Shown: positions 3,012 through 8,698 of the stretch, one piece after another
Layout of the letters: each line of letters starts with the position of its first letter
How positions within the stretch are numbered: the first letter of the stretch is position 1
Origin: Caenorhabditis elegans
Taxonomy: Eukaryota > Nematoda > Chromadorea > Rhabditida > Rhabditidae
NCBI RefSeq assembly: GCF_000002985.6
Contig: NC_003279.8
Coordinates: forward strand, 5,270,001 to 5,334,000
Length of the DNA: 64,000 nt
Reading direction: 5' to 3'
Program-made: the position numbers and the translations under genes
The notes under the pieces: generated by a model
Database searches by the model: none
The model's input: the letters and a program-made list of their open reading frames with translations, nothing else
What the model was told of the DNA's origin: nothing

Positions 3012-4208
3012 TTAATATCCACAGCTGCGAAGATGCTTGTTCTCTGGACTGCGCATCATCACTTCATGCGATTCATTGAGATACCGAGCAACCGAATTGT
3101 TCTTCGAATCGTCAAATTCATCATTTCCACTGAGCATTGACTCATCATTGGCTGGTGGTGGAAGCTCTCTCAGCATTGGTGGAAGACGAGCAGTTGAGAC
3201 TTGGAATGGAGGAGCAGAAGTTTTCAATAAGCCGTCAAGCTCGGCGTTGAGCTGGAAATAATTATAATAGAACGATATGGGGATATATCAATATATCAGT
3301 ATACCTGCTTCATTCCAGCAACTTCTTCCGATTTCTCATCTCGCTTATCCGGCAGTATCAGCTTGACATCAGCCATATACGTCAACGATGAGTTGGAAAC
3401 CGGGTTAGATTTCGTCGAGATTGGTAGTGGCTCAGTAGCAGTTGGAATGTCACAATCGACTGGAAGTTCACGACTCTTCGCATCACACGTATTTTGAGAA
3501 TCCTGAAGATATTTCAATTATTTTAGTTTCGTTTCATAACTAGAATATCCTTACCACTTCTTGACAGAATTCAGCCGAGTAAACTGAATTGGTGAGTGAA
3601 TCCACGTGTTGAAGCACCGAGCTTGTCCCGTCAATAGTCATAGACTCCAAACGAGATTTAATCGAATCTGAACCGACGAGGCTGCGAGTGCTACTGCTGC
3701 TCTCAGGAGCTTGCGGAACAGTGCTTGGTGGTGATCCCATGTAAACTTCTGAAATTTTCTCAATAACATTCAATAATTTTTTTTCTAAACTAACTGTCAC
3801 TGGGCTCTCGGTAAGGAAGCGAGTCGGTGATAACTGTCCGACGATCAATCTCAGAACCTTGGCCTACAGTCGATCCTTCTCCTTCAGTGACGATATCGGC
3901 TGGCGCAGTAGGAACTGAAAATTCGTCATTAAAATTTTATTTGTATCATGGTTTCAGACAACTAACCATGGAAGATAGCCGGGGCGGATGTATCAGCCAG
4001 TTGACTCCGTTTCTTTTCCTTTTTCGCAGCTTTTCGTTCCGATTTCGTCGATTTTCGGCTCATTGTGGAGATCAAACTTCCGTCGGCAGTGGGTGCCACT
4101 TCATTGTTTGGAAAGTAAGCATGAGTCTGAAAATTATTAAAAATCGATAAAATAGTAAACATAAAACCTTACCGATAATCCGAGAAAACGCTTGATACGA
4201 CGCAGCAT
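3012..4208 (-). CDS. Ser/Pro-rich protein of unknown function, 315 aa
   Basis: Six exons (4173-4208, 3967-4126, 3795-3914, 3555-3748, 3305-3502, 3012-3251) keep phase throughout and end in TAA. The first exon encodes MLRRIKRFLGLS, a short basic amphipathic start. It is followed by a Lys-rich stretch (SKRKSTKSERKAAKKEKKR-like, residues about 35-53) that could be a nuclear localisation signal. The remainder is rich in Ser, Pro, Asp and Glu with no transmembrane segment and looks largely disordered. No known domain is recognised. By position next to cln-3.2 I believe this is the gene named C01G8.1 in C. elegans, but I give no symbol. Confidence 0.75.
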
Positions 4209-4769
4209 TTTTCGATGGGATTGTGAAGGTTCGAAGTTTGCAAATGAGAGAATTTTCAATCGAAAGATTAAAACTCAATTGAAAGGAAAAACTGTTTACA
4301 TTTTTTCCCGCGTTTTATTTACGAAATTCAAAAAATGGCGGCGATAATGTTCTTACACTTTTGCAATGCAGAAACTGTCAACTACAGTAGCCAGAAAAAT
4401 TAAAATTTACATACCTAGTTTTGAGTTTGAATTTAATTGTTTTTTCTTTACTTTGGATAAATATAAAATAATTCAGCGATTAAAAAAGGATTCAAAAAAA
4501 TCTCAACTTCTTTAATTTAAATTTGTTTAATAAAAAATATCGTTCTTTCGCAGAAAATTCCGGTTTTCTCTGTTCATTTAATAAGCTGAAAAAGCCTGAA
4601 AACTGAAACGTTAAAGTTTCGTTGAGCTTTTTTACATTAAAAAGTTTATGAAAACCCAATTATTTAACTTTTAAAATAACAAAATGGGAAATATCGTTTG
4701 GCAGTTTACGATTCTGAATTTTATTTATGTACATGTAAATTTACAAGAAAAAATTTAAAAATAATTATA
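4209..4769. other. intergenic, AT-rich
   Basis: This gap holds the 3' UTR of cln-3.2 and the upstream region of the next gene. No coding pattern or repeat stands out apart from the polyadenylation signal listed separately. Confidence 0.5.
4720..4725 (-). terminator. AATAAA polyadenylation signal of cln-3.2
   Basis: The minus strand reads AATAAA about 45 nt after the cln-3.2 stop codon (4770-4772). The distance suits cleavage just downstream. Confidence 0.65.
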
Positions 4770-7700
4770 TCACATTGGCATTGAACAAATACGATTATGA
4801 ACCGGCATGGCAAGAAAACCAGCAAAAACGATTCCAATCGTGTCTGAAATCGAGACAACGCCCATCGAAAATTCTCGGGAATCGGCGGGAATCTGCAATT
4901 TTGAATCCAATTTTCAGAAAACAAAAGTTTCCAAGAAAACCTCTTTATGAACAGCACGGAACGTGTTAACATAACTGGCTCCTCCAAGTAATCCTTCAAA
5001 AAGAATTACAAGAAATGCGATCAAAATATGAGGAAGAAATGAGTAGATTGCAGTTATAGTGAAGAATCCAGCATTGAAAATCTGAAATCAAAATATTTTA
5101 ATTCAATTTTTCGGACAAAAACTAAATACCTGAAGAACAGCTAGACTTTTAAGATATTGTGTTGGAATTGTGACGTAGTTTGATGAAGATCTAGATATAA
5201 ATACTCCAAGTTGATAGGTAACTTGAAACCATCTATATTGGCTCTCTGAGCTCATTGAAAAACCATGGCTACAGTCGAATTCCAGCAATTCCAACTGCAA
5301 ACGAATGAGAAAATTCATTTAATTTAAGATTTTGTTTCAAAATAAACCTAAATTCTCTAGGCAAATACTGTTTTACTACTTGATATTTTACTACGTATCT
5401 CTTTTACTACAACATCTCTTTTACTACGGAATCTCTTTTACTACGAATTCCGCATCTAGATCTTTTACTACAGTTAGCTCTTTTACTACGTGATATCTTT
5501 TACTACGATTTGACCACATAGATCTTTTACTACGGAAAATACTTTTTTACTACCTCATCTTTTACTACGTGGATGTTTTACTACGTTTTACTCTTTTGCT
5601 ACTGACGTATTTTTACTACGTGGAGGGACACTGTTGGGTTACTGTAGTTGTATCGTGTGAGTAACAGTTTTCAGATTATATAGTATAGTTTTTTATTAAT
5701 TTCTAGAAATTTATTCACTATGAAAAATTTTTTTACTACAATGGCAGGGATTTTATTTTTCACTATTTTTCGTATCTTTTGCTACGAATTGCTAGTGGAG
5801 AAATCCTGTTGGGTTACTGTAGTGGTACTGTGGGAGTAATTAACTTTTTTCGCGTAACCAACAAATTAGTTCCATATCCGTTGATTTATAAGTTTTTAAA
5901 ATGTAATAAACAACATTCGGGTTCGGTCAGTTATCGGCCAGATGTTTGAAATTTAGACTTCAACTGAAATTTAGAAACTTTTGATCAAAAACTTCAAAAA
6001 TGTTTATTTTGCATTTATCAAATCTTGTATAGAATAAGCTGTTTATTGTTTTCGATCAACTTGAATGTTTATATCACGATTTTAGATTAAAACAACGGAG
6101 ATATGGTTTCAAAAGTGTGTTCACAAAACTCTTTGACTCCGAGTACCGATAACTCCGCGAAAAAAAATTGGTTAAAAATGTTCAACTGACAAATTGTAGA
6201 CCGTGCTATTCAACAACTTTGTAGTTGAAATCTTTTTGACAAATAAATTGACGACCGAGATAGGAGTGTTAAAAGCGAGACTGCATTCTCATATGTACCG
6301 GACCTACATTTTTCAGAAAATCTTTTGAGAAACATTTATAGAAGATTTTTCAAATGTAATAAATGTTTCTGGAAATTTTACAAGTTTTACAAGAAAGCAA
6401 GAGATCATGCCGTTTTTTTTTAAATTTCTAGATCCAAATGGCCATAATAAGTTCTGCTCATTTCATAGTGAATAAATTTCTAGAAATTAATAAAAAAACT
6501 ATACTATATAATCTGAAAATTGTTACTTACACAATACAACTACAGTAACCCAACAGTGTCCCTCCACGTAGTAAAAATACGTCCGTAGCAAAAGAGTAAA
6601 ACGTAGTAAAACATCCACGTAGTAAAAGATGAGGTAGTAAAAAAGTATTTTCCGTAGTAAAAGATCTATGTGGTCAAATCGTAGTAAAAGATCTATGTGG
6701 TTAAATCGTAGTAAAAGATATCACGTAGTAAAAGAGCTAACTGTAGTAAAAGATCTAGATGCGGAATTCGTAGTAAAAGAGATTCCGTAGTAAAAGAGAT
6801 GTTGTAGTAAAAGAGATACGTAGTAAAAGATCAAGTAGTAAAACAGTATTTGCCAATTCTCTAAAATGATAACTGCGACTAATCAGGAACTCGCTCCACC
6901 CACTTTTGAACCAATCAAATAGAGTGGGGCGGAGTTCAAATACGCTGATTGGTTCCAAAATGAGCTTGGCTTCTCATTTTAGAGGGAATTCAAACAGGGT
7001 ATTTAGCCCAAAATGAATCTATCTTTTATTCTGTATTGATTTTTTCGTTTTTCGTGGTATTATTAAACAAAGCATTTTTTGGATTTTTTTCAAAGTATAA
7101 CTTACCAATCCCTGATTAATATAGTACTCTGCTAGATAAACTGATATCAATGGAATCATAAATTTGAGCAACGGGAGCACTCGTTCCAATGTAGTAGAAG
7201 TTTGACGTCTTCTTGAAGTCACATCAACGCTATTTTCCCGATCTTCCCGTATTCCTAAAAGTCCTTCTTCTTCCTCAACTTCTTCTCTTCTCATATCATC
7301 TGCCGGAATGAAATCTCCGGTGACTAGCCACGTGGATGGTTGAAGAAAGTGTGCTCGTTGGACACTGTGTGGAATTTTGAGAATCGACCAATAAGAAACC
7401 GAAAAGAGTGCCGGAAGTGTGAGCATTATGAACATTGTGTGTTTTGGTGAAATTGCGAGAAGTTTCGAATCGGTGAGCAAAGCATATGCAGATGCTCCGA
7501 TAAGACCTGCTCCGCCAGTTCCAGAAGACCACGACGCGACGACAGTTCTAAAAAAAATGTAATTTTTATCCTTCTGCTATATAATTTTGTGATTTTATGA
7601 GGAATGAGCCGCACAAAACATTAAGCGTCTTGAAACAGTACAGTAACCAGGACAGATTTTTAAAACAGCTATTTATTTTTTGTTATTTTTATTTTAAAAC

Positions 7701-8698
7701 GGAGTGTTTTCAAAGTTTTTAATTTTATTTTTCGAGGCCAAAAAACCGAAAAAACCTATTAAACTTTAAATGTTTTTGTGTTTTGCTTTTTTTTTGTTGC
7801 AAACATCCGGGAAGCGGCTACTGTACTGCTTAAAGACGCAGCCCATTTTGCACTGTTTCAATTTTAAAATTTTTCGTTCGTGGTGAGAGACTCACGATGG
7901 GTAATTTGAACTCAATGCCAGATATGAAATCTCTCCGAGACCACTACCGAAACTTGCCAGCACAACTCCTGAAAATCTAATTTTCCCCAGTATTACTGTA
8001 ATAAACAAACCGAAAAGTGCCAAAGCTGTTGAATCACTAATTCCAACAATCAGAAAACTTGATGCTTGAAGTAATACGACGATTGAGTGACGAATTCTTT
8101 AAGAAATGTTTTTTAATAGAAGATAAAACGTTACAAACCCAAACGGTACCCGATGAATGAACATGGGAGCTGTGATTTTGATCAAAAGTGCTGGAATTAT
8201 GTCAGCAAGAAGAACAGATCCAGTTGACATCATTTGACATTCTCGTGTTGTTACATGTTCCTGTTAAAATGGGTGTTTGTAGTGTGAGACTTATGGGTTT
8301 TCATGCCTGCCTGCCTACCTGCCTACCAACTTTTAATTTATTGTATAAAATTGCAACTCCGATTTTTTACAAAAATTATTCCAAAGTTCATGGCAATTAT
8401 TTAAAAAATCTCTAAAATTATGTTTGCTAAAATATTCGTTTGTATTTTGCCAGTAGGCACAAGGCAGGCAGGCGTCTCCATATCAAACCTACTCGACACG
8501 GTTTTTCGATATGTTTTGCATCTTTTTCGAGAATATCTTTGGCAGCACTGAGCATTACTACGTAGGCGAAGTTATTGCATAATCCGAGAAGCCTGAAGTT
8601 ATATTTTCTTCCAGATTCAGAATATTTATTCCTAAAACCAACCAAAATGCCACCGAATTCCTGGGTGGCCGCCTTCCTCCTCCGCTTGCCACATCCAT
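4770..8698 (-). CDS. cln-3.2: CLN3/battenin family lysosomal membrane protein, 435 aa
   Basis: Nine exons (8643-8698, 8493-8592, 8139-8260, 8011-8096, 7896-7968, 7106-7547, 5130-5294, 4941-5081, 4770-4892) join in phase to 435 aa, close to human CLN3 (438). Family hallmarks are visible: WLLGLCNNFAYVVMLSAA near the N-terminus, STGSVLLADIIPALLIK, SWSSGTGGAGLIG, VYLAEYYINQGL, QYRWFQVTYQLGVF and FEGLLGGASYVNTF. It is a multi-pass protein of lysosomes and endosomes; loss of human CLN3 causes juvenile neuronal ceroid lipofuscinosis. An acidic loop with an EEVEEEEGLLGI stretch could act as a dileucine sorting signal (inference). The start is supported by a TTTCAG acceptor at 8709. The 1.8-kb intron 5295-7105 carries a long-TIR element, and intron 8261-8492 carries a small inverted repeat. 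The C. elegans genome has three cln-3 genes; the choice of cln-3.2 rests on the neighbours. Confidence 0.95.
5360..6854. mobile_element. Long-TIR foldback element with 9-bp target duplication
   Basis: The element starts GGCAAATACTG (5360) and ends CAGTATTTGCC (6854). It is flanked on both sides by the same 9 bases, AATTCTCTA (5351-5359 and 6855-6863). The arms, about 5360-5722 and 6458-6854, are nearly perfect inverted repeats. The outer part of each arm is built from irregularly spaced copies of TTTTACTACG: I count about 13 on the left and 14 on the right. The right arm has one extra unit of about 27 bp. The middle (about 5723-6457) has no ORF of 60 codons or more, so the element is non-autonomous. 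Long TIRs with a 9-bp duplication fit Mutator-like elements; the exact family is not established here. It sits inside an intron of cln-3.2. Confidence 0.88.
8303..8475. repeat. Small inverted repeat, GCCTGCCTGCCT type
   Basis: Left arm 8305-8327 (GCCTGCCTGCCTACC...) pairs with right arm 8450-8473 (...GGCAGGCAGGC) across about 120 bases of AT-rich sequence. It lies inside intron 2 of cln-3.2 (8261-8492) and occupies most of it, as a MITE-like insertion would. Confidence 0.65.

Follow-up and report, generated by a model that had tools for sequence, protein, structure and literature searches.

A long palindrome lying within an intron of a Caenorhabditis elegans gene of the CLN3 family is, very probably, a Foldback-type DNA transposon that is non-autonomous and is moved in trans by a MULE transposase. 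We read it as a non-autonomous Foldback-type MULE derivative because its 9-bp target-site duplications and its architecture are shared with Tm1 of root-knot nematodes and Muta1 of Aedes aegypti. The element belongs to a family dispersed over the genome, and each of its arms is an inward-pointing array of one short word, TTTTACTAC.

Structure and position of the element

The window examined here is the whole 64-kb stretch of DNA that was analysed, C1:5270001-5334000, in a 100.3-Mb genome of 7 contigs; the features discussed below are collected in Table 1. The inverted ends of the element, GGCAAATACTG and CAGTATTTGCC, are exact, and the 9-bp duplication AATTCTCTA is perfect on both flanks, which confirms what the first-pass annotation of this DNA had reported. 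Both arms are composed of three ungapped blocks with 98-100% arm-to-arm complementarity. When the outer 335 bp of the left arm are aligned with the outer 362 bp of the right arm, 5 substitutions are found over 335 aligned bases, and the right arm carries one additional 27-bp unit. All stop-to-stop frames of the element (5360-6854) are shorter than 90 aa.

Minus-strand exons matching PF02487 flank the element, which is therefore intronic within a gene of the CLN3 family. This agrees with the intron position given by the first-pass annotation, whose name for the gene, cln-3.2, is probably correct. A short imperfect inverted repeat (window 7625-7839, with 24-bp arms that are 88% complementary) lies a short distance upstream, in minus-strand terms, of the 7107-7546 CLN3 exon.

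Table 1. Features of the palindromic element and its host gene, in window coordinates
Feature	Position	Strand	Description
Whole element	5360..6854	.	1495 bp
Left target-site duplication copy AATTCTCTA	5351..5359	.	9 bp
Right target-site duplication copy AATTCTCTA	6855..6863	.	9 bp
Terminal motif GGCAAATACTG	5360..5370	+	
Terminal motif CAGTATTTGCC	6844..6854	-	reverse complement of GGCAAATACTG
Left arm	5360..5725	+	366 bp; 14 inward-pointing TTTTACTAC units in outer 335 bp
Right arm	6461..6854	-	394 bp; 15 units in outer 362 bp
Interior between arms	5726..6460	.	
Upstream CLN3 exon	7107..7546	-	PF02487 profile 114-255, E 4.1e-31
Downstream CLN3 exon	5130..5297	-	PF02487 profile 258-309, E 9.4e-13

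A dispersed family with common ends

The terminal motif GGCAAATACTG occurs 77+70 times on the two strands of the genome, against 8+10 for its reversed control; the terminal 20-mer, with two mismatches allowed, occurs 56+54 times, against 2+0. A longer end pattern, GGCAAATRCTNNNNTACTAC, is found at 49+49 places and its reversed control at 0+0. On the strength of such reversed-pattern controls, these and the one given below for the array motif, chance occurrence was rejected. Of the 98 GGCAAATRCTNNNNTACTAC ends, 74 form 37 inward-facing pairs less than 6 kb apart, which delimit copies of 194-5499 bp, and 24 are single; among neighbouring pairs of ends within 6 kb, none faces outward and one is on the same strand. 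A search of the genome with the whole element returned at least 161 matching pieces, the best relative being a 1431-bp copy on C3 with 94% identity over the full length of the element.

The claim of the first-pass annotation, put to the test of other copies with different ends or duplication length, stands unrefuted among the copies examined. The same check also brought out some decayed duplications and a subfamily with the same ends and another array: L091 and L092 lack the 9-mer TTTTACTAC, have exact 9-bp duplications, and keep a TACTAC core in a different unit, roughly TTGCTAGAATACTACC.

The copies vary widely in size. The smallest, at positions 401-594 of L071 (C1:4313256-4313449), is a minimal 194-bp copy that is nearly all arm and has the exact 9-bp duplication ATTTGTATT. 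L089 and L090 (C2:1812713-1815941 and C5:15427982-15431214) form a subfamily of 3.2-kb copies. Their arms measure about 970 bp, the two arms of one copy being 99.6-99.8% identical, and their exact 9-bp duplications differ from one another; these two are perhaps among the more recent of the insertions examined. L074 (C1:12465876-12470440) is a 4565-bp relative with an exact 9-bp duplication. In one of its arms (positions 3440-4708) a 62-bp unit, built from the same motif units, is repeated in tandem 20.5 times with 98% matching; its other arm holds 2.5 copies of the 62-bp unit.

Homogenisation of the two arms within an element is unsupported by our data: over the outer 250 bp, an element's own arms resemble each other more than they do the nearest foreign arm in only 6 of 17 elements, the window element being one of the six. 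In a tree of the arms (36 rows, 18 elements), 5 of 31 inner branches are well supported.

Target-site duplications

MULEs duplicate 8-10 bp of their target, most often 9. We found an exact 9-bp duplication in 17 of the 23 candidate end-pairs examined, a count with a small bias since the best-matching right end was kept wherever several were possible. All 17 differ in sequence; their A+T content is 78%, and 14 of them have A at position 2. Of the 37 exact-ended pairs, 18 are represented among the real elements examined, and 15 of those 18 have an exact 9-bp duplication; three further real elements have one imperfect end, and in two of these the duplication is exact. The remaining four real elements match at 8/9, 7/9 (inside an A run), 6/9 and 0/9 positions. 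The pairing of the other two candidates is doubtful: L075, with 3/9, extends across two elements, and in L077, with 1/9, a good end is joined to a degenerate one.

A conserved, polar array in the arms

According to the first-pass annotation, the arms were made of a repeated 10-mer. The array itself is upheld: at one mismatch or fewer, the outer 335 bp of the left arm hold 14 units and the outer 362 bp of the right arm 15. The near-invariant word, however, is not a 10-mer but the 9-mer TTTTACTAC, which is followed by G in 9 of the 14 left and 11 of the 15 right units. TTTTGCTAC accounts for one unit per arm. The units point inward and are spaced 15-20 or 27 bp apart. On both strands of the 64-kb window, TTTTACTAC occurs 29 times, 28 of them inside the element, with 1.48 copies expected from base composition. 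Genome-wide, the spaced pair TTTTACTACN{4,9}TTTTACTAC is found at 220+293 places, against 0+0 for its reversed control.

An initial motif logo was dropped as circular, given that its units had been anchored on exact matches, and was therefore replaced by a mismatch-tolerant count and by a conservation test whose mask came from the window copy alone. In one arm of each of 19 elements, the count gave 195 units at 0, 24 at 1, 15 at 2 and 11 at 3 mismatches, against shuffled means of 0.2, 3.9, 29 and 107. For the conservation test, 17 of the 19 elements were aligned with MAFFT, the motif mask was taken from the window copy, and diversity was measured in the 16 others. Mean pairwise difference was 0.12 in motif columns and 0.30 in spacer columns, so that the word is 2.5 times less variable, in an alignment that is itself guided by the repeated word and may somewhat favour motif columns. 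Circularly shifting the mask never reached this difference: 0 of 295 shifts did so, 0 of 294 when the closest copy was removed, and 0 of 284 within six copies of two other subfamilies. Subject to the caveat on the alignment, these results support constraint on the 9-mer. The first-pass annotation had gone on to suggest that the array was selected as a set of binding sites; the statistically greater conservation of the word relative to its spacers favours that suggestion, and we infer from it that the TTTTACTAC array is a candidate set of transposase binding sites.

The array also has a polarity. In the elements that contain TTTTACTAC, forward copies are confined to the first half and reverse copies to the second; the exceptions are the 194-bp element, whose array crosses the midpoint, and the doubtful pairing L075. 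Tandem periods of 17, 27 and 62 bp were among those found in the elements. Two features of Foldback elements are thus present: long inverted termini made of short repeated units (the 366-bp arm has 14 units and the 394-bp arm 15) and copies that differ in repeat-unit number and interior (lengths from 194 to 5499 bp, a 27-bp difference between the arms of the window element, and the 20.5-copy array of L074).

Search for a transposase

None of the 19 family copies checked contains a transposase-sized frame; the longest stop-to-stop frame has 135 aa, and the longest in the 3.2-kb copies has 100 aa. A profile search of the genome with PF10551, PF00872 and PF03108 (MULE, Transposase_mut and DBD_Tnp_Mut) gave no match. 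PF21056 gave two weak places, with E values of 0.057 and 0.35, both below the cut-off. Within 4 kb around the former (C3:2967703-2967855) there are no GGCAAATACT ends at one mismatch or fewer and no TTTTACTAC; an adjoining exon resembles PF10551 at E 0.11, also below the cut-off. These weakly MULE-like exons (L093 1537-1956, minus strand, corresponding to C3:2967436-2967855), all below Pfam cut-offs, have a relative at C4:2898883-2899275, in two pieces of 72% and 96% identity, one with two stops, and further relatives at C2:1932952-1933336 and C4:15517610-15517950. None of the weakly MULE-like exons lies less than 100 kb from the 98 listed exact ends, a comparison that ends diverged from GGCAAATRCTNNNNTACTAC would escape.

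Subclasses of MULEs can carry additional domains: according to the available excerpts, Phantom combines a FLYWCH zinc finger with the MULE domain (PMC3169594), and Rehavkus has a PHD finger (PMC6446971). FLYWCH was found at three places in the genome, none within 40 kb of the listed family ends. A transposase with the ends of this family was thus not found, either by profiles and by exons compared with the exact ends or as a frame in the 19 copies. Such negative profile searches are no proof that a transposase is absent, because CEMUDR1 and CEMUDR2 are cited, in the excerpt available of PMC2725143, as autonomous C. elegans MuDR consensus entries in Repbase. Among the exact-ended pairs, the one of greatest length, 5499 bp at C5:14901805-14907303, is a natural candidate for an autonomous partner.

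Relationship to known elements

The repeats of C. elegans are well catalogued, and the family is therefore expected to carry a library name already. Among the open-licence matches listed, as judged by title and the start of the abstract, there was no paper on this family in C. elegans, repeat libraries lying outside the scope of that search; nor was there a nematode title among the matches listed for the motif strings. The available part of PMC6446971 has no occurrence of Caenorhabditis, elegans or nematod, and those of PMC6873666 and PMC1431705 contain nothing bearing on the CLN3-intron element. CEMUDR1 and CEMUDR2 resemble the family as Mutator-type consensus elements of C. elegans, a comparison by description only (excerpt of PMC2725143).

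Three described systems come closer in plan. Muta1, which its authors assign to the type 2 Foldback elements and which transposes in yeast, has 8-9 bp duplications, a TIR made of a 10-bp terminal motif and 9 copies of a 12-bp subterminal unit with 3-4 bp spacers, and many non-autonomous derivatives of variable repeat number and interior (excerpt of PMC5225508). Its TIR has 145 bp, whereas the worm arms have 366 and 394 bp with wider, irregular spacing, and it encodes a transposase, of which none was found in the worm family; the comparison drawn here concerns the plan of the two elements (PMC5225508). Tm1, a Mutator/Foldback element of Meloidogyne, shares with our family a nematode host, non-autonomous copies, composite TIRs that vary in length and have units of 13-15 bp, and duplications that are mostly of 9 bp (excerpt of PMC3169594). 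According to the same excerpt, it differs in its repeat motif, in outer motifs that are asymmetric, unlike the exact inverted ends of the worm element, and in that one Tm1 element encodes a transposase of the Phantom subclass of MULEs (PMC3169594). Finally, Tetris of Drosophila virilis, likewise of Foldback type, makes 8-10 bp duplications, and the repeats of its TIRs build satellite-like arrays as well, comparable to the 62-bp array of L074; its units are of about 220 bp, in contrast to 17, 27 and 62 bp in the worm family (excerpt of PMC4079207).

The family is, then, of a recognisable Foldback/Mutator-like kind and not a new one, and is possibly catalogued already. The idea, put forward by the first-pass annotation, of a Mutator-like relative without its own transposase is favoured, short of proof, by the 17 of 23 duplications and by the Tm1/Muta1 architecture; the profile, exon and frame searches described above found no transposase with these ends.

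Alternative explanations

A local inverted duplication without transposition, its matching flanks being a coincidence, would account for the inverted structure itself, and we found nothing else in its favour. It is contradicted by dispersed copies with the same ends (49+49) and by 17 distinct exact 9-bp flanks, and we rejected it on these grounds as next to impossible. A less remote, if still unlikely, explanation is a Foldback-type element moved by a transposase other than that of a MULE. Foldback structure arises independently in several superfamilies, an example being Galileo, with its P-type transposase. As to duplication length, hAT elements make 8 bp, piggyBac TTAA, and Tc4/Tc5 3 bp, none of which fits 9 bp. 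Consistent with a non-MULE enzyme, different transposase classes reside in Foldback termini (excerpt of PMC3169594), and neither the genome profiles nor the exons compared with the 98 ends revealed a MULE transposase with the ends of this family; against it, 17 of 23 candidate pairs show an exact duplication of 9 bp, a length that the available excerpts describe as typical of MULEs (PMC3169594, PMC5225508).

Might the host itself keep these arrays, either because one of its proteins binds them or because they yield double-stranded RNA regulating CLN3, and so maintain the word? The lower variability of TTTTACTAC relative to the spacers and the long hairpin predicted for the intron RNA would both agree with such a role. 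Long palindromes are also what LONGPAL elements are. In the excerpt available of PMC9683057, LONGPAL names are listed as transposons, and LONGPAL1, LONGPAL3 and others are among those targeted by the C. elegans piRNA pathway, names not linked there to this element; as a guess, one LONGPAL entry may be this very family. Opposed to a host role is the conservation of the word across copies and subfamilies at unrelated loci, for which a host function at the CLN3 locus is unneeded, and we regard such a role as very improbable. The reading that we prefer remains a non-autonomous Foldback-type element moved by a MULE transposase.

Proposed mobilisation and arm growth, and age

For a MULE-mobilised Foldback element, the following course seems plausible. 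A MULE-type transposase acting in trans would bind the terminal motif GGCAAATACT together with the many TTTTACTAC sites of each arm, cut at the ends, and insert the element with a 9-bp stagger. Arm length would shift by slippage or unequal exchange of the 17-, 27- and 62-bp array units, which would account for both the extra 27-bp unit of the right arm and the 20.5-copy array of 62-bp units in L074; growth of the arms by these routes is suggested by the sequences compared. A bolder proposal, which we consider rather doubtful, is that these are selfish, multi-site landing arrays: a MULE lineage missed by the profiles would read TTTTACTAC at 12 or more inward sites in each end, and selection for the number of sites would make the arms grow to the point where they can tip into satellite DNA, of which the L074 array would be an instance.

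The insertion had been described in the first-pass annotation as fairly young, for which the evidence is weak. An undamaged 9-bp flank is a poor clock and tells little of when the element arrived. Between the two arms there are 5 substitutions and one unpaired 27-bp unit; 5 substitutions over 335 bp of arm would date the insertion only if the arms were identical when it occurred.

The annotation's expectation of a hairpin agrees with our folding prediction: folded as single-stranded RNA, the element is predicted to give a long stem in which the two arms pair, bulged where the extra unit lies, with a minimum free energy of -737.6 kcal/mol, a value that carries no shuffled comparison. Of the small-RNA or A-to-I editing role that the annotation also proposed for the arms, this predicted hairpin is the only part shown here. 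Upon CLN3 transcription, the intron would fold as such a hairpin, and any effect would be a by-product.

Implications

Our analysis assigns an intronic worm palindrome to the Foldback/Mutator-like elements and provides, as a candidate for binding, a conserved word. For the CLN3 gene, the predicted long hairpin in the intron RNA matters when small-RNA or editing data are read at this locus. The conserved, polar array and its satellite-like expansion are the parts that deserve specialist attention. Within one genome, the gradation between a palindrome of 194 bp and a satellite-like array of 62-bp units is useful for asking how Foldback arms grow, and if the arrays are indeed selfish landing sites, the family would be a natural record of transposon ends turning into satellites.
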